Both the position numbers and the translations under genes were made by a program. A stretch of 32,221 nucleotides of DNA from Methanosarcinaceae archaeon (GTDB lineage: Archaea > Halobacteriota > Methanosarcinia > Methanosarcinales > Methanosarcinaceae). The notes beneath the pieces are model-generated. The model saw only the letters and a list, made by a program, of their open reading frames with translations. It was not told the origin of the DNA and ran no database searches. Positions 2,560 to 22,403 of the stretch are shown here, piece after piece (the first letter of the stretch is position 1; each line of letters opens with the position of its first letter). The stretch covers positions 6,813-39,033 of the forward strand of contig DUKH01000047.1 of the NCBI GenBank assembly GCA_013329415.1, in the 5' to 3' direction.

Positions 2560-3714
2560 TTAGTTTATGAAGTCAATGATCGAATTGTCGTTCTTTTTTC
2601 TTATTTCACCCATTTCTCCCCTTCTGGAGTCCTGGTTCACTCTTCCTAACCTCTTTGCCCGGAAGGCTTCGGCTTCGCTCTGGGGTTCCAGGATTCCGGC
2701 ACCTGCCTGGGGGCCGAGGATCTGGGCTGACTGGACACCGGTCATGATTGCCATAACACGGACCTTGCCCTCGTAATCGTCCCTGATTCTTGCGCCCCAG
2801 ATGACATTGGCGTTGGATGAAAGTTCGTAGGTGAGCATGGAGGCTATTTCTTCGGCTTCCTTCAGGCTCAGGTCCGGCCCTCCGGTCACATGCACCAGGC
2901 TTCCGCTTGCACCTTTGTAATCGACGTCAAGCAGGGGGTGGTTCAGGGCAGTCCGCACTACTTCCGTGCTCTTGTCCTGGCTCTTGGACTCGCCCACGAG
3001 CATTACGGCAACCCCGCCGCAGCTCATGATGGTCCTGATGTCGGCGTAGTCGAGGTTGATCAGCGAAGGCACGGTGATGGTTTCGGTTATGCCTTTCACG
3101 GTTTCGGAAATGAGCTGGTCCATGACGGAGAATGCCTGGTCGATTGGCAGGTTGGGCACGTAGTTGAGCAGCCTGTTGTTGTCCAGGACGATCACGGTGT
3201 CCGCTGCCCGGCGGAGGTCTTCAAGTCCTTCCTCTGCCTTGACAGTGCGGGCTCTCTCAACCCTGAAGGGGCTGGAGACCATGCCTACTACGATGGCTCC
3301 CTGCTCTTTTGCGACTTCTGCGACTACGGGGGCAACTCCGGTCCCGGTACCTCCACCGAGGCCCGCGGTGACGAATACGAGGTCAGCGTCTTTTAATACT
3401 TCTTCAAGAGTGCCTCTTGCAAGTTCGGCGGCTTTCTTCCCGGTTTCGGGGTAACCGCCGGCTCCCAGCCCTCTCGTGAGGGTTTTTCCCACCAGGATCT
3501 TCTTGTCAGCCCTTACGTTGTCCAGGTGCTGCTTGTCAGTGTTGATGCAGACGGTTTCCGCACCTTCGATCCCGATATTGTAGAGTCGGTTTATGGTGTT
3601 GTTTCCGGCACCCCCGCAGCCTACGATCATGATCCTCGGCTGGCCGAATTCTTCAAAATCTTCCTCGGACGCCGCTTTTTTCCGGAATTCCTTCTCTTTT
3701 TCAGTATACTTCAT
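2560..3714 (-). CDS. ftsZ: cell division protein FtsZ, FtsZ2-type
   Basis: This tubulin-family GTPase forms the cytokinetic ring. It has 384 aa, the usual length. The N-terminal GCGGAGNNT motif (about 32-40) and the tubulin signature GGGTGTG (about 120-126) bind GTP; the T7-loop region NLDYADI follows at about 220. The segments [13 protein letters not shown] and [11 protein letters not shown] resemble haloarchaeal FtsZ2 rather than FtsZ1, an assignment made from memory of those sequences. The C-terminal tail after about 330 is charged and ends near NSIIDFIN, a possible partner-binding peptide. The start at 3714 has an AGGA element a few nt upstream. It is transcribed away from the HAD hydrolase across an 894-nt AT-rich spacer. 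Confidence 0.96.
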
Positions 3715-4608
3715 TGCTTCCTGTACTATAGATTGCAGTTCATCCCCTCTGCTGGATCTTTTTTAATAATTGTTTTCCTTCAACTCCCCACCCTGTGTTC
3801 AGGAGGTCAATTATTTTGGAATACTATTGAGTGAATTTTGAGAGATAACCAATAAAACATCTATGAATATTTTTCATCCGTTATCTTTAAAAAGCTGGCA
3901 CTCAACTGAACTTAAATATTTTGGACCTATTTATGGATTATACTTAAGTTGTATATCAAGTTTATATATGTCACCCATCAATTTTATATGTGTTTCCTTT
4001 TCCCATCCTGTATCCAGGGATTTTAGGATATCATTAATCTGGGCTGTGCCGAAAACCTTATATGCGATTGTCGAAACCTTCCCCGAAATATATCGTTCCT
4101 AAGGAAAGTTTCTCTGTCCTGACATGTCAGGGCAAATTTTTTGTTGGTTCGTTTATTTATATATTTTACATTTTTTTGTTTGATTTATATACTACTAATT
4201 CTATTTTTTTAGAACCCAGGAACATTTAAGTCCTGAATTTCAAATCTGGTGAAATCGTTTATATTATTAGTATTTAAGTAGAATTCTTAAATTTATATGT
4301 TTTGTGGTACCTGCCAAAAATTTGAAGGCAATCTTTTAATTTTTTTATTAAATGTGATATGACTTAAAAAAAATATTTATCAAAATGTTTATCACAATAT
4401 AAGGTATCTATACAATTCTTTATGCTCAACTTTTCCCCTTTATTATTCCTTTCACTTCTTAATAATATTATAAAGTCCTCTCACTTCCTCGACAGCTGTA
4501 GCTGGCAGGGGGCTGTTTACGCATAACAATTCAAATAGTTCTCTGGGAAAGCTTTAAAGCCTGAAAACTATTCCTACTTTATCAAACCTTCTCAATGGGG
4601 CTAAAATA
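3715..4608. other. AT-rich divergent intergenic region
   Basis: This 894-nt spacer separates ftsZ (minus) from the HAD hydrolase (plus). It holds two adjacent perfect palindromes, TTCCTAAGGAA at 4096-4106 and CCTGACATGTCAGG at 4118-4131, the second followed by T6 at about 4136. Several TATA-like stretches lie at 4150-4290, and a short GC-richer island around 4490-4530 contains CAGCTGTAGCTG. A 79-codon frame at 3863-4102 is probably noise. I see no tRNA or known RNA. Confidence 0.6.
4096..4141 (+). terminator. palindrome pair with T-run, possible terminator or operator
   Basis: An 11-bp palindrome (4096-4106), a 14-bp palindrome (4118-4131) and then T6 on the plus strand form a terminator-like hairpin plus U-run. 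No convincing plus-strand gene precedes it, so it could equally be a protein-binding site or the end of a small RNA. Confidence 0.35.
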
Positions 4609-5265
4609 GTGTTAAAAGCGTTAATTTTTGATATGGACGGCGTCCTTGTGGATTCAATGCCCTTTCATGCGGCTGCCTGGAAAAGAGCTTTTCTGGAAAT
4701 GGGCATGGTAATCCGGGATGAAGACATCTATGCAATCGAAGGTTCAAACCCTATCACGGGGTTGCCCCTGCTTATCAGATGTGCAGGGGAAGACCCTGAA
4801 GCTTTTGATTTTGAAGAAATCACCGCAATCTACCGTCAGGAATTTGGAAAGATCTTTGAGCTAAAGGCTTTCGAAGGTATGAAGGAATGCCTTGAAACCC
4901 TGAAAAGCCGCTACCTCCTCTCTGTGGTCTCGGGCTCGGACAGGTTGATCGTTAACGGAATCCTGGGCCAGCTTTTTCCGGGGGTCTTCGATGCCGTGGT
5001 CACGGGAGATGATGTTATCTACGCAAAGCCCCATCCCGACCCTTTCCTGAAAGCTGTCGAACTCTTGCAGGTAAGAAAAGAAGAATGCCTTGTAATCGAA
5101 AATGCTATTTTTGGCGTGGAATCTGCAAAGAGGGCGGATATTTACTGCATCGGAGTCCCCACATATGTCGATTTTGAGCAGCTGGACCGGGCTGACCTGG
5201 TGGTAGGTGGTCATAGGGAACTCATGGAGCATCTGCTGAGCCTGGACTCTTCTCCCTCTATCTAA
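4609..5265 (+). CDS. HAD-superfamily hydrolase, beta-phosphoglucomutase/phosphatase-like
   Basis: This 218-aa protein is a HAD hydrolase of subfamily IA. The nucleophile motif DMDGVLVDS has Asp8 and Asp10. The helical cap spans about 17-85. Motif II is VVSGSDR (about 106-112), and the motif III Lys is Lys140 in AKPHPDP. Motif IV reads ENA (Glu164-Asn165) where beta-phosphoglucomutase has Glu-Asp; I recall this ENA form from other archaeal HAD proteins. The substrate cannot be predicted and is probably a small sugar phosphate or other phosphomonoester. The start is GTG at 4609 with only a weak GGGG element before it. It is monocistronic and converges on fttA across a tandem-repeat spacer. Confidence 0.9.
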   Translation: MLKALIFDMDGVLVDSMPFHAAAWKRAFLEMGMVIRDEDIYAIEGSNPITGLPLLIRCAGEDPEAFDFEEITAIYRQEFGKIFELKAFEGMKECLETLKSRYLLSVVSGSDRLIVNGILGQLFPGVFDAVVTGDDVIYAKPHPDPFLKAVELLQVRKEECLVIENAIFGVESAKRADIYCIGVPTYVDFEQLDRADLVVGGHRELMEHLLSLDSSPSI

Positions 5266-5269
5266 TTTC

Positions 5270-5424
5270 TTTGAAAACAGCTCAAATAGTTTTTAAAATA
5301 GCTCAAATAGCTTTTAAAACAGCTCAAATAGCTTTTAAATAGTTCTAATCGCTTTAAAAACAGCTCAAATAGTTTTAAAATAGCTCAAATAGCTTTTAAA
5401 TAGTTCTAATCGCTTTAAAAACAG
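5270..5424. repeat. tandem repeats, 20-bp unit within a 61-bp higher-order unit
   Basis: About seven degenerate copies of a 20-21-bp unit like AGCTCAAATAGCTTTTAAA occur. On top of this, a 43-bp segment at 5321-5363 recurs identically at 5382-5424, giving a 61-bp period of three basic units. The array fills the gap between the converging HAD and fttA genes. Confidence 0.85.
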
Positions 5425-5509
5425 ATATAATTTCTTTAAAAACTGATCGATTAACTTTTAATACAGCTCTAATTCATATCCTAAAAATGTTTTTTTTGTA
5501 AAAAATTTT

Positions 5510-5569
5510 GTTTTTAAGGAAAAAGAAATAAGGAAAAAGAAAAGTGGTGACTCTCCCGGGGGAGGTCAC
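5510..5569 (-). terminator. fttA terminator hairpin and U-rich tail
   Basis: On the minus strand, GTGAC + CTCC pairs with GGAG + GTCAC (5547-5569) with one bulged base. The fttA stop codon lies inside the stem. It is followed by a long pyrimidine tract with several T4-T5 runs down to about 5515. This has the form of a strong U-rich archaeal terminator. Confidence 0.7.
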
Positions 5570-7479
5570 AGCAACCTTACGGTTTCCAGGTTTGTAAGTG
5601 CCCTGGTCTCGATCTTCAGTTTCTTGTAAATCGAGCTTGCAAGGTCGATACAGGCCTTTTCTTCCCCGTGTTCGGTGAAGACCCTTTCGGGGCGGGGCTG
5701 CATCTTCTTGATGTAGTCCATGAGCTGCCTTCTGTCCGAGTGTCCGGAAAAACCGTCCACAACCTGCACTTCCATGTTCATCTTGAGGATTTCGGTGCTT
5801 CCGTTCTTTCCGGTCATGGGGATTTCCTTCCATCCTTTCTGGATCCGGCGCCCGGTTGTCCCGTCAGCCTGGTACCCGACGAATACAAGGGTGTTGCGGG
5901 CGTCTTCTGCAAAATTCCTGAAGTAGTCCATAACCGGCCCGCCGTTCATCATACCGGAGGTGGAGAGGATAACGCAGGGGTGCGGGTTCTGGATAATCTT
6001 CTGGCGCATATCGTGGGAGTCCACGGGCTTGAAACACTCTGCAAGGAAGGGGTTCTGGCCCTTCTGGAAGATCAGTTTCCTCAGGTCGTTGTTCAGGTAT
6101 TCGGGGTGGGTCGCATGGATCGCGGTGGCTTCCCAGATCATCCCGTCCAGGTAGACAGGGATATTGGGGATGATTCCTTTCCTTATGGACTCCTCGAGCA
6201 CGATCATGACTTCCTGGCTGCGTCCTACCGCAAAAGCCGGGATCAGGACAAGCCCTCCCCTCTCAATGGTTTCCTTAACAACCCGCTGGAGGTTCTTTTC
6301 AGAGTCCCGGAGAGCTGGCTGGAAGGCGTTTGCATTCCCGTATGTGGCTTCCGAAATGACGGTCTCAACTCTCGGGAACCTGTTGACTGCAGGGTCAAAG
6401 AGCCTGGTCTTTTCGTACTTGTAGTCCCCGGTGAAGACCACGTTGTGAAGCCCGTCCCCAATATGGAAGTGGGAAATTGCTGAGCCCAGGATGTGGCCTG
6501 CGTTGTGGAAGGTCAGTTTGATGTCCGGGGCAATGTCAGTAACCTCTTCGTAGTCCAGGGGGATGGTGTGTTTGAGGGTCTTTGTGATCATCGCTGATTC
6601 GTAGGGGATCTTTTTCCCTTCTTTTGCTGCCACGTCGATGTAGTCGAGCTGGAGCAGCACCATCAGGTCCCTGGTGGGAGGAGTACAGTAAACAGGCCCC
6701 TCATAGCCATACTTGAAAAGCAGAGGAACCAGGCCCTGGTGGTCCAGGTGGGCGTGAGTTACTATTACGGCATCGATCTGGTTAAGGGGGAAAACTTCCG
6801 GGACATAGAGGAAAGGGGTCATGTTCTCGTCGGAACCGACGTTGACTCCGCAGTCGATCAAGACCCTGGAATCCGGGGTTGAGAGCAGGAAACAGCTTCT
6901 TCCAACTTCCTTGCATCCCCCGAGTGCAGTTACCCTGACCCACTGGTCTTTTGATGTACATTCCCTGTGTATCTTCCTCCCCACGGATTTCAGGATTTCC
7001 TTCCTTTCCTTGAGGTTGTTCCTCATGAATTCTCTAATGTTCTTAACAGTACGGGATTTGATGGGTGGAGTCCTGGCAACCTTGGGGATCCAACCTATCT
7101 GTTTTGTGATCTCACGGAGGGTTGCGCCGTGCTTTCCGATGACAAGTCCCGGTTTTTCGGCTTCGATTATCACTTCTCCGGAGTCAGGATCAAAGTAGTA
7201 ACTTGAGATTACGGATTCCTTTGGAACAACTTCTTCGATGATAGAAATAGAGTCTTCGGGAGTTGCAAGCACCCTCAGGTCCGGGCGCATGGCGATGCGC
7301 GTCCGGAGTTCCTTTGCCAGGTTGCGGATGATGTTTCCGTCGTCAGCGAATTTGCGGGGTTCTTCTGTATAAAGTACGAGCTGGGGCCCCTCGAATTCGA
7401 CGTCGGTTATCGTAACTCCTGCCGGCAGATTTCTCTCAATTTTCTTTTTGAGGTCTAATAGCACGTCTTCAATAGGCAT
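5566..7479 (-). CDS. fttA: archaeal CPSF1 / FttA, transcription termination ribonuclease
   Basis: This 637-aa protein is the archaeal homologue of CPSF73, which cleaves nascent RNA after U-rich tracts and terminates transcription. An N-terminal KH region has a GKHG loop at about 115-118. The metallo-beta-lactamase domain carries THAHLDHQG (241-249), whose His/Asp residues bind two zincs, and further ligands in NAGHILGSA and FTGDYKYE. A beta-CASP domain is inserted, and the C-terminal part holds SGHSD and the conserved FTEHGE. All catalytic motifs are intact and the length is canonical. The ATG at 7479 is preceded by AAGGAAG at about 7 nt. It follows psmB in the same direction after 118 nt, a pairing I recall from other euryarchaea. 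Its leader holds a striking series of U-runs. Confidence 0.95.
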   Translation of the reverse strand: MPIEDVLLDLKKKIERNLPAGVTITDVEFEGPQLVLYTEEPRKFADDGNIIRNLAKELRTRIAMRPDLRVLATPEDSISIIEEVVPKESVISSYYFDPDSGEVIIEAEKPGLVIGKHGATLREITKQIGWIPKVARTPPIKSRTVKNIREFMRNNLKERKEILKSVGRKIHRECTSKDQWVRVTALGGCKEVGRSCFLLSTPDSRVLIDCGVNVGSDENMTPFLYVPEVFPLNQIDAVIVTHAHLDHQGLVPLLFKYGYEGPVYCTPPTRDLMVLLQLDYIDVAAKEGKKIPYESAMITKTLKHTIPLDYEEVTDIAPDIKLTFHNAGHILGSAISHFHIGDGLHNVVFTGDYKYEKTRLFDPAVNRFPRVETVISEATYGNANAFQPALRDSEKNLQRVVKETIERGGLVLIPAFAVGRSQEVMIVLEESIRKGIIPNIPVYLDGMIWEATAIHATHPEYLNNDLRKLIFQKGQNPFLAECFKPVDSHDMRQKIIQNPHPCVILSTSGMMNGGPVMDYFRNFAEDARNTLVFVGYQADGTTGRRIQKGWKEIPMTGKNGSTEILKMNMEVQVVDGFSGHSDRRQLMDYIKKMQPRPERVFTEHGEEKACIDLASSIYKKLKIETRALTNLETVRLL

Positions 7480-18312: not shown

Positions 18313-20727
18313 TCAGGCCTCCTTGCAGAGTCTCTTGAGGTTAGTAGGCTGTGCCGAGACATCGAACTTGATCTTCGGACCGGAGATGATCTTCTTCTTC
18401 TTCCAGTCGATTTCCCATCCGTGATCTGCTTCGAGTTTCTTGAGAAGTTCTTCACGCTTGGCAAGTGGGAGGTCGGCTTCGTTCCTGACGAACTTCCACC
18501 AGTCATCCGGCTCTACGCCGAGGTACTTCTTGGAAAGCCCGATCCAGTGGGTCAGCTTGATGGACCTGCCCATGTTGTTGTCAGACGGGCGGATGCAGGC
18601 CTTTGCCATCATCGGGATTGCTTCCTGCCAGGTCTCTGCGGTGGTCAGGAGGAATTCAGGTGCTGGTGGGATTGCCATCTCTTCGCCGTTCCTTCCGTCG
18701 TAGACTTTCCACTTGGACTCGTCGTAGTTCTTGGCGATCAGGGCTCTCCTGTACTTAGAACTGTGAGGTCCGAGCACTGCAGGGACACCGTAGATGTTGC
18801 ATCCGGTTCCGATTGCGGCTGCTTTCTGGGAGTATGCGCCCCAGGCAAGTCCGCAGGCACCCACACGGGTAAGGGTGTAGTCTGCAATTTCTGCGAGGTT
18901 TCCTTCCAGGGTTCTGCCTGCAAAGATTCCGGCTACTTTCTCAGCAGCTCCGCTGATGTGGGCGTTGGATACACAGGAACCTGTGTTAAGCAGTCCGCCA
19001 CCATAGAAGCCACCGGGGTACCTTTCGTAGAGGGTCTTGCCATCTTCATCCTTGTACATACCGATGTCCATTGCGGAACATCCACTTACTGCTAAGAGGT
19101 AGTTTCTCTTCAGGAACTCTTCGGCAATGAGGTAGACGTCCTTGGTTCCGGAGGGGTAGTTCGGACATCCGATGATTGCGATGATACCCGGGGTTGTACC
19201 CATAACGAGGTTCAGACCTTCCGCACGGATTTCGGCGTCACTTGCCTGGCCTCTGCCAGCTCTTACCAGGCCTATCTCCTCGGAAATTGCCTTCTGTGCA
19301 ACTTTCTCAATCACATTGAGGATGGGGATTTCTTTCTTACAGACCTGTTCGCAGCGGCGGCAGCCGATACAGACATCGTGGAGTGCTTCAAGGTAGGAGA
19401 AGTCTCCATCCTTCGCAAATGTCATGGCTTCGGGGATGTCGAGTTCCTCCGGGCAGGCCAGCAGGCAGGCTCCGCAATCTGCACACTTGTCGACGTATGC
19501 TTTGAATTCCTCGTCAGTCGGAATTGCGGTGATACCTTCTGCGTCACGGATCGGAGCCATTACATTGGCAAGCTTCGGGACGAGTTCTCCGAGTTTGTCA
19601 TAGTCAAGCATCACACAACCCGGGATTGCTCCGGACTTGAGTTCCTCGATGGTTGCGTCAACATCGGCATCGGAGCGGTCAGGCAGTCCGGCCATGATCT
19701 TCTCGTTGGAAGCGATCACAGGGATCTTGAGCTTCTGGGATTCTGCCAGGACGTCTCCACGGACACACTGTTCGTCCACAACAATGACATCAGGCATCCC
19801 TGAGCGGATGACCTTGAGTTCCTTTGCCAGGGACCCAACGATCTTGGCGTAGGGGGCTCTCCTGTCAGCTTCCTTGTACCTGGTCATGTCGAACGCGGTA
19901 CAGCACATACCTGCGATTTCCATCTTGTCGGTCAGGTCGTTGTCTTCCATGTAGTCCATGATGTAGGTTACACCGGCCACGTTGTGCCCAATGGCAACGA
20001 TAAGTGGCTTGGACTTGTCAATGGTCCCCATTCCTATTTCAATAAGCGGGGCTTCGGGGTCGGCTTTCGGGAAGTCGTATGCTGTGACCTGGGCGATATC
20101 GGAAACTTCCATGCCGACGTGGTCCAGGCTGCCGCTGAAGAGGGTCTTTGAGTCGTAGTCGATTTCTGCGGATTCCTGCCCTGCGTGGATGGTTGCAAGG
20201 AGCTGGGTGAGCTGTTCTTCAACATACTCCATCGGAGCTCTGCAGTCTCCGAGGGTCTTCGGAGAGAGCCCTGTGCAGATTGTGACGTTTGGTGTCAGGA
20301 CGTTTGATTCTCCAAGATTGAGGGGGACGTCTTCTCCAAAGACTTCAATTACATGGTCAAGCAGGTGGCGACCGTGGGCAGCGTGGCAGGCAGTTCCTGT
20401 AATTACACGGAGGAAGAATTCCCTTCCGTTGTGTCCCATCTGGTCGATACCGCAGGCTCCTCTCTTGTTCCTGGAAAGGTCACATGGTCCGTAGGTACAG
20501 TAGCAGCACTGGTCACACATGGGGGTGACTACAGGCTCATAGCGGTCGAGCAGGGTTAAGTTCCAGCTCCTGTAATCTGCTATGCCAGCAAAAGGAGTCG
20601 GACCCATCGGGCCGAGTTCTTTTTCTTCTTCAGCCACCTCTTTTGCTGCCCCTACAATACTATTAATTGTGATCTGAACGTCTTTCAGATCATCTATAGA
20701 AAAACTCCCGGTAGTTAGTTTGCTCAT
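18313..20727 (-). CDS. cdhA: CODH/ACS complex subunit alpha (CO dehydrogenase catalytic subunit)
   Basis: This 804-aa subunit carries the Ni-Fe-S C-cluster that interconverts CO and CO2. N-terminal cysteines in [13 protein letters not shown] (Cys71, 74, 75, 77, 82) with Cys92 supply the B and D clusters. Two ferredoxin-like motifs, [11 protein letters not shown] (about 413-423) and [11 protein letters not shown] (about 451-461), bind clusters E and F found only in archaeal enzymes. Later Cys residues in [21 protein letters not shown] and GTGCNIYG are expected C-cluster ligands. The ATG at 20727 has AGGAGGT 9 nt upstream. It is the first gene of the operon, with a leader of about 371 nt. Confidence 0.98.
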
Positions 20728-21098
20728 CTGAGCTTTACCTCCTAGATTTGTTTAGAGTCGACTTCGCTGAAACGATTGCAAATTATAGCATAGTTCGGCA
20801 CAACATTAACGATTATAAATTATAAATCTTGGTTTAAACTTTATATTTCCAATCGTCTGAACCGAACTTAACTGGCAAAACGTTTTTATCGTTTTTTTTA
20901 AATATTCAATCCTTAACTGAACGTTTTTCCCAACTAAAACGTTTTTTCGGAAATATATTTAATCAAAACTCGTTTTTAGGGCTTTAATCTCCAAATTACT
21001 TTTTTTATGCCCTTCTCTCTTAAAAAACCGTTTTTACCAGCGATTGCGACCCTTCTTTCTAGAAAGAGGCCACTACCGATGGATAATAAACACTAATT
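20728..21098 (-). promoter_or_regulatory. long cdh operon leader with six AAAAACG heptamers
   Basis: The predicted start at about 21098 gives a 371-nt untranslated leader, agreeing with the length I recall for the M. thermophila cdh leader, where elongation through the leader is regulated by carbon source. Read as RNA, AAAAACG occurs six times, at plus-strand 20881-20887, 20890-20896, 20922-20928, 20940-20946, 20971-20977 and 21029-21035. A CTTTCTAGAAAG palindrome lies at about 21055-21066. Confidence 0.7.
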
Positions 21099-21136
21099 AA
21101 CGATGTAAATGTACCAAATCTATATAACATTTTCTA
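21098..21136 (-). promoter_or_regulatory. predicted cdh operon promoter
   Basis: On the minus strand AGAAAATGTTATATAG contains a purine-rich BRE-like segment followed by TTATATA (21121-21127). About 25 nt downstream, an A at 21098 is a plausible start. Confidence 0.65.
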
Positions 21137-21145
21137 ATTTGTAAC

Positions 21146-21216: not shown

Positions 21217-22403
21217 TGCTAAATCGTTGTGAACCGGCTTCCGATATTGATTTTTGTAATAACCTTTGTTCTGTATGAAGAATTAGAATTATAATATTAT
21301 TAATTCTGATTTATTTTCGATTTATTTCTCACCTGGGGTAAATAATTCTCCAGATATTTCTTATTTGGAAATATATTTTCATCTGATATAAAATAAAAAC
21401 GATTTATATATCTCTTCATATATATCCGATTTAATTTATTTGTTTTTTATAAAATTGTTTCTGATGAAATTACCAAAATTTATATATATGAGGAAAGAGT
21501 TGGCACAATTTTCAATAGTAAACGCCGTAAACCGCTTTTACCTTTCCAGCCTGGTCAAACCCGATATTAATTTTTTAACTTTTATATCTGCTTCTACATC
21601 TATTCGATTTGAATATATGTATATTCTATTTAATCACTATTCTAAATAGCAAGGCTTTTGTATCTGTCGGACTTCTGTTCCCTGAATAATGTGCCCGTAA
21701 ACAATATGTACGTCTGAAAGGCTTTGATGATACGTCTACATGTGTAATCTCATAGAATTGTCTTTAGATTGATCTCAAAAACCATTTTTTAGATTAATCT
21801 CAAAAACCATTTTTTAGATTAATCTCAAAAACCATTTTTTAGATTGATCTCAAAGAACCATTTTTTAGATTAATCTCAAAGAACAGTCTCATCGAATAGT
21901 CTTGTAGAACGGTCTTGTAGAATAGTCTGGAGAAAATATGTATTAACACTGCTGTATGGCTAAAGCCATCTCATTTTACCGGGCCTATTATATGAGTCAA
22001 CTTTCACGTAGCAAGCCTCTTATGTACAGTTCATTTTATGTATCAGGTACCCATGTATTATATCTATCAGGCATTGTTCGGGTCACAATTTGTTCGGGCA
22101 TCAGATCTCCAGGGTTAATCAGGAAGCATTTCTATTCTTCAAAGGTGAAGCCGAGAATTCTTCTGCTTTAAGTTTTCCTGCTTTAAAGGTAAAGCATGGG
22201 ACTTTTTGATCAGGAGCTTTTTGATCCGGGGCTTTTCTTATCTGCCTGTGAGGAATTCAGGGTTCGGACATTGAGGGTATTCAACGAGTTTTTATTTATT
22301 ACAACGATTTCTATATATTGACGTACTGGCCTTCTGTATGGATTCTTTTAAGTGGAATTTTTCGGAAAGAATTTTTGTTATTCAGTTGTTACATTCAGGT
22401 AGA
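21217..22403. other. gene-free AT-rich region
   Basis: About 1.2 kb without a credible gene. Short plus-strand frames at 21440-21649 and 21956-22171 lack ribosome binding sites and family features. The region contains the 25-bp tandem array, further decaying repeats with GTAGAAYRGTCT at 21900-21930, and a small duplication GGAGCTTTTTGATC / GGGGCTTTTC around 22200-22240. Confidence 0.6.
21766..21890. repeat. 25-bp tandem repeat array
   Basis: Units of the form AGATTAATCTCAAAAACC followed by ATTTTTT occur at 21766-21790, 21791-21815, 21816-21840 and 21841-21866 (26 bp), with a partial fifth from 21867. The second and third copies are identical. Each unit contains the small palindrome AGATTAATCT. 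Confidence 0.9.

Follow-up and report, generated by a model that had tools for sequence, protein, structure and literature searches.

Background

Short sequence words that are repeated both on non-coding RNAs and in the leaders of target genes are known from the bacterial CsrA/RsmA systems, in which several sponge RNAs per genome (CsrB, CsrC, RsmX/Y/Z) titrate a regulatory protein and display GGA in hairpin loops. TRAP also acts on several copies of a short word, GAG/UAG, set at short regular spacing in a leader governing early termination.

In methanosarcinal archaea, a regulatory 5' leader of the cdhABCDE operon was reportedly described by Anderson et al. (2009, J Bacteriol 191:7123). Substrate-dependent expression of CODH/ACS in Methanosarcina is governed by the 5' UTR, through uncharacterised early termination or an endonuclease (review PMC3600222), and this bears out, at the level of the genus, the carbon-source control that a preliminary description of the DNA studied here had mentioned. 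How the operon is controlled after transcription start in acetate-using methanogens has been an open question since the necessity of the leader was shown. The same genus also controls this enzyme complex by a small RNA: in M. mazei, sRNA41 acts on the ACDS (cdh) mRNAs by masking ribosome-binding sites within the polycistronic mRNA (PMC5867862), a description that would set it apart from the array loci reported below.

We analysed a window of 32,221 nucleotides from a Methanosarcinaceae archaeon (contig DUKH01000047.1 of assembly GCA_013329415.1), containing the start of a cdh operon and its leader. The locus resembles that of Anderson et al. in the operon concerned and in the long leader, where substrate-dependent control would reside, and differs in a repeated word, a conserved four-site layout and predicted companion array RNAs, none of which is known to have been described for that leader. 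The window matched no known riboswitch or other Rfam leader at the gathering score, and the leader, searched at a relaxed threshold, gave nothing credible; the sub-threshold Rfam matches (eukaryotic snoRNAs and one enterobacterial sRNA) were dismissed as implausible.

Results

A repeated heptamer in the cdhA leader

The first gene past the leader is cdhA (18313..20727, minus strand), encoding the 804-aa alpha subunit of the CO dehydrogenase/acetyl-CoA synthase complex, as identified from its translation and from the NCBIfam equivalog TIGR00314 (1061.6 bits, cut-off 781.3). It is preceded on the same strand by a Shine-Dalgarno sequence, AGGAGGT (20737..20743), that is conserved in the alignment of leaders, and further upstream by a promoter block, ACAAATTAGAAAATGTTATATAGATTTGGTAC (21111..21142), that is near-invariant in 21 leaders. 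As the TATA-like TTATATA within this block sits at 21121-21127 (minus strand), we infer a transcript start near 21100, about 25 nt after the TATA-like element, and a long leader of ~371 nt between it and the Shine-Dalgarno sequence (20728..21099). Upstream of the promoter, at 21757-21890 of the window, we additionally observed a ~25-bp tandem unit, TTAGATTAATCTCAAAAACCATTTTT, in at least four near-identical copies.

The transcript strand of the leader carries AAAAACG six times (plus-strand CGTTTTT starting at 20881, 20890, 20922, 20940, 20971 and 21029), exactly as the preliminary description had it. Dinucleotide-preserving shuffles of the ~371-nt leader gave a mean of 0.25 copies and a maximum of 3, and those of the 155-nt stretch that holds the copies a mean of 0.43 and a maximum of 4, with none of 20,000 shuffles reaching six in either case. 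Well under one copy is thus expected from composition, as had been claimed, and every other heptamer occurs at most three times in the leader. The supposed regular repetition of the words is ruled out by their coordinates, which give irregular gaps of 9, 32, 18, 31 and 58 nt; here the cdhA leader differs from the targets of TRAP, with their regular spacing. AGTTRRG-like words, said to follow several copies, do stand behind three of them in the window, but the alignment of leaders shows no conservation of these companions, and we rejected them as part of the motif.

Conservation and distribution of the leader

We gathered CdhA relatives from the genome collection, counted the word in their upstream regions, and aligned these regions. 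Methanosarcina-type genomes were found to have two types of cdhA leader. The first type (21 loci, including that of the window) contains one to six words, mostly three to six, and the second contains zero to two, at different positions, and occurs alongside the first in several genomes. Across the 21 leaders of the first type, words 1 to 4 lie at matching positions, and are exact in 17/21 (word 1, 21029..21035), 19/21 (word 2, 20971..20977), 16/21 (word 3, 20940..20946) and 19/21 (word 4, 20922..20928), all on the minus strand. Because conservation in the columns of these four words reaches 94.6%, compared to 80.1% elsewhere in the leader, and words 5 (20890..20896) and 6 (20881..20887, both minus strand) are each exact in only 3/21 leaders, the former behave like constrained sites and the latter, which are clade-specific, like recent additions. 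The refuting outcome named in the preliminary description, a heptamer neither enriched nor conserved in orthologous leaders, did not occur; the cluster is not universal, being carried by one of the two leader types, with copies 5 and 6 confined to a clade.

A covariance model of the leader, run over 112 genomes of the family, found a single strong match (129-219 bits) per genome in 35 of them, alongside weaker ones. We found no AAAAACG in the cdhA leaders of Methanococcoides, Methanolobus, Methanohalophilus and the other genera tested. Upstream of cdhA in the second cdh operon of several Methanosarcina genomes (L005, L007, L009, L010, L011, L014, L017, L041), the leader is of an unrelated type with at most one or two words, so that the two cdh isozyme operons are probably regulated differently, as judged from their leaders. 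In L041, the cdhA match (3001-6610) covers 3,610 nt compared to the usual ~2,410, and has probably been split by an insertion or assembled wrongly.

The conserved words are set among hairpins and U-tracts. Directly 5' of word 1 lies hairpin P1 (21037..21082, minus strand), with a CCA-CGGU-G-GACCU stem of 13 pairs and 97.1% of cells paired over 21 sequences; as these pairs are mostly invariant, its support comes from conservation and not from covariation. Hairpin P2 (20978..21013, minus strand), directly 5' of word 2, has an AGGGC/GCCCU stem of five pairs with 94.3% of cells paired, and shows two-sided change at two pairs among the 21 leaders. Overall the folding of the leader has little covariation support, with P1 barely varying. 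Right after word 1 follows a U-tract (21022..21027, minus strand) of at least five U in 18/21 leaders, the same proportion in which the word is sandwiched between conserved hairpin and U-tract. The predicted accessibility of the leader words (0.51) slightly exceeds the leader mean (0.43).

A separate family of AAAAACG array loci

The weak matches to the leader model, when read, were mostly a separate intergenic locus, in which AAAAACG recurs mostly every 13-16 nt between the stem arms GGCAUCUGU and ACAGAUGCC. When we searched for the 5' stem arm plus the word as a pattern, this array appeared once per genome in 29 Methanosarcina-type genomes, with one further chance match and no control matches. 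Of these genomes, 28 share a strong leader match, the odd one being a 60%-complete assembly. The array was undetected in seven genomes with the leader, which may reflect incomplete assembly or divergence. In the window's own genome it lies at G000:C64:8302-8749, with an assembly gap inside. In several genomes, porA/porB lie nearby on the opposite strand, PorB being confirmed by NCBIfam.

Arrays contain between 4 and 33 copies of the word, and part of this copy number is due to tandem duplication. Their orientation is uniform: each of the 353 words in the 28 closed arrays is on the transcript strand, and the opposite strand has none. CG follows 353 of 405 array A-runs, though spacers vary within and between arrays; the array of L155, for example, has seven units with seven different spacers. 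With a unit length indivisible by three, the arrays are unlikely to be coding repeats. The array words are predicted to be 68% unpaired, compared to 50% for the arrays as a whole, and their spacing shows no helical phase. In 29/29 genomes the array stem is preceded, 30-32 nt upstream, by TTATAT, and the constant distance of this conserved TATA box is no more than a hint of array transcription. Just before the TATA box, ~35-50 nt upstream of the stem (L145-L174), we observed a conserved TTTTCAGTACATCCGTAG-like element, a candidate site for a transcription factor that would control the array RNA.

We searched seven array loci against Rfam and found no match; the arrays are apparently non-coding RNA genes, previously unlisted, that would be transcribed from the TATA-like element. 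They resemble CsrB, CsrC and the Rsm RNAs in carrying many copies of a word on one predicted RNA (in all 29 genomes, the non-coding nature being judged from unit lengths), a word that is also repeated in a putative target leader, and in the occurrence of several such predicted RNAs per genome. In contrast to the GGA displayed in hairpin loops in bacteria, which the array RNAs lack, the archaeal word is AAAAACG and is mostly predicted unpaired. As both word and display differ, and no Rfam family is matched, the array RNAs are, on sequence grounds, not members of the Csr/Rsm family; the likeness is one of logic, with no sequence relation claimed and with a sponge function here only putative.

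A predicted stem-closed RNA beside the 16S rRNA gene

We additionally identified by pattern search a predicted RNA upstream of a 16S rRNA gene, between it and a divergent 2-isopropylmalate-synthase-type gene (assigned by NCBIfam and by Rfam SSU matches) in 28 Methanosarcina-type genomes; two more matches, in another genus, were dismissed as chance. Immediately before the predicted RNA is a TATA-like element; the RNA itself comprises a 5' hairpin, two to seven words and a closing stem that varies on both sides by species (AGGUACU/AGUGCCU, AGGUAUC/GAUGCCU, AGGUGCC/GGCGCCU and others). In its three-helix structure 88.3% of cells pair, with two-sided changes in 40 cells, a result matched by none of 500 shuffles, and the closing stem by itself reaches 95.3%; the pairing collapses once partners are slid. 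Nothing else in the analysis speaks as strongly for the words being carried by RNA as this covarying stem. The element may be a small RNA in its own right or else a long leader of the rRNA.

Discussion

A putative trans-acting factor and its alternatives

We conclude that AAAAACG is probably an RNA-level binding site for a putative trans-acting factor. The multivalent RNA-binding regulator suggested in the preliminary description is well supported by comparative evidence, as copies 1 to 4 are conserved in place and the arrays occur at independent, promoter-preceded and stem-closed loci. The factor, most likely a protein of the Methanosarcinaceae, would recognise AAAAACG on the cdhA leader, where four conserved sites lie beside hairpins and U-tracts, and its presence on the nascent leader would alter early termination by RNA polymerase, or cutting of the leader, a decision that would set the output of the cdh operon by carbon source. 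The array RNAs, with their promoter, closing stem and 4-33 mostly unpaired words, would titrate the factor much as CsrB titrates CsrA, and the 16S-side RNA, with few sites in a stem-closed loop, may do likewise or be a further target. UUUU is found within 8 nt of 45/77 leader words, compared to 11/353 array words, and this difference suggests that the leader may couple binding to an elongation or termination decision and that arrays may only bind. We hold the whole chain, from putative factor and leader target to decoy arrays and titration, to be about evenly balanced between right and wrong.

A role of the leader words as pause or elongation elements, also raised earlier, is possible, because word 1 abuts a U-tract in 18/21 leaders and UUUU is near so many of the others. 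Taken further, the words could be direct termination or pause signals, consisting of an A-rich word and a U-tract, with no dedicated factor, and the arrays would share the word by coincidence or via a general elongation factor (archaeal NusA, Spt4/5, FttA/aCPSF1). Early termination was indeed proposed earlier for the cdh leader (PMC3600222). We nevertheless think this account unlikely, since some leader words have no neighbouring U-tract, the word is equally strict in the arrays, where U-tracts are rare, and its invariant CG would be needless in a pure pause signal. We give slightly less credit to base pairing, in which a putative small RNA with a CCGUUUUU-like seed would bind the leader and the arrays would sponge that RNA. 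Strict heptamers with variable flanks are compatible with seed pairing too, and sRNA41 is a known repressor of this enzyme complex in M. mazei (PMC5867862), but a seed of five A plus CG pairs weakly, and sRNA41 is described as acting at ribosome-binding sites, away from the AAAAACG words.

Explanations that dispense with RNA binding altogether fare slightly worse. If the arrays were functionless minisatellites and the leader words a result of A-rich composition, the spread of array copy number among species would be readily explained, and species-specific AAAAACG tandem repeats that have no stem or promoter do exist; this reading is made very doubtful by the shuffle tests and positional conservation in the leaders, by array spacers that have diverged around unchanged words, and by the TATA-stem distance fixed in 29 genomes together with the covarying stem. 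Several leader copies fall within short palindromes such as AAAACGTTTT, as might be expected if the AAAAACG/CGTTTTT repeats past the promoter were bound by a protein as double-stranded DNA. This is the least credible of the alternatives, as the words are all located 3' of the TATA box and on the transcript strand (in the arrays 353 to 0), the stem at the 16S-side locus covaries as RNA, and the spacing of the arrays is out of helical phase.

Returning to the RNA-binding factor, a broader version of this reading holds that a dedicated AAAAACG-binding global regulator, whose activity a family of stem-closed array RNAs would determine, would control catabolic genes and the rRNA-side locus as an independent archaeal Csr-like circuit; we advance this tentatively, as the less probable version. 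Its targets would include the cdhA leader, and possibly those of mtaC and, in relatives, the gap between hdrB and hdrA2. The AAAAACG arrays suggest, by analogy, that Archaea have their own equivalent of the sponge RNAs with which bacteria titrate a regulatory protein. We know of no earlier protein-titrating RNA circuit in Archaea, and this would be the first if the sponge reading is true; a search of the open-licence literature found no archaeal protein-sponge RNA, which is weak evidence of absence. Such a circuit would act on a main route of biological methane production. The conserved words provide specific bases for mutation, and the array RNAs provide both bait for the factor and a single deletable locus.

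Wider occurrence in the family

The genome-wide view was obtained by pattern searches. The 3.1-Mb genome G103 contains 27 two-word clusters. Of these, 16 belong to five loci, namely the leader of cdhA, the RNA beside 16S, the main array, and a second and a third array that are likewise closed by a stem. The remaining 11 do not exceed the reversed-pattern control (15). The stem motifs of the two further arrays lack genus-wide conservation. Matches to GGTCACT, the closing-stem motif of the second array, were scattered and chance-like, and for that of the third, allowing two mismatches, control matches were about as common as real ones, with exact copies in two other genomes. Species-specific tandem repeats of AAAAACG, many of them in single genomes, were left aside as they have no stem or promoter.

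Within the window's genus, the leader of mtaC1 (methanol corrinoid protein) contains one to three AAAAACG words together with GGTGC words, 220-290 nt upstream of the gene (L187-L190). Outside this genus the word is mostly absent from mtaC leaders or single, and we rejected these leaders as a genus-wide target, keeping them as weak candidates. The mtaC1 leader and the hdrB-hdrA2 gap are, from their sequences, leads to wider targets.

In a second genus of the family, three-word clusters occur in 18 of 22 genomes, against one control match, and include stem-closed loci with a TATA-like element. Two loci (L293 and L305), in two genomes, have five and seven AAAAACG words, respectively, between the heterodisulfide reductase genes hdrB and hdrA2-like. 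TATA-preceded AAAAACG loci with GAGGCACC/GGTGCCTC hairpins, reminiscent of the Methanosarcina 16S-side RNA, were observed in L292, L294, L298, L301 and L307. Finally, AAAAACGG clusters of 3-12 words with a conserved AATCCACCA at the end (L267, L268, L300, L306, L315, L316) apparently share a single syntenic location, on the 3' side of a gene for a small membrane protein.
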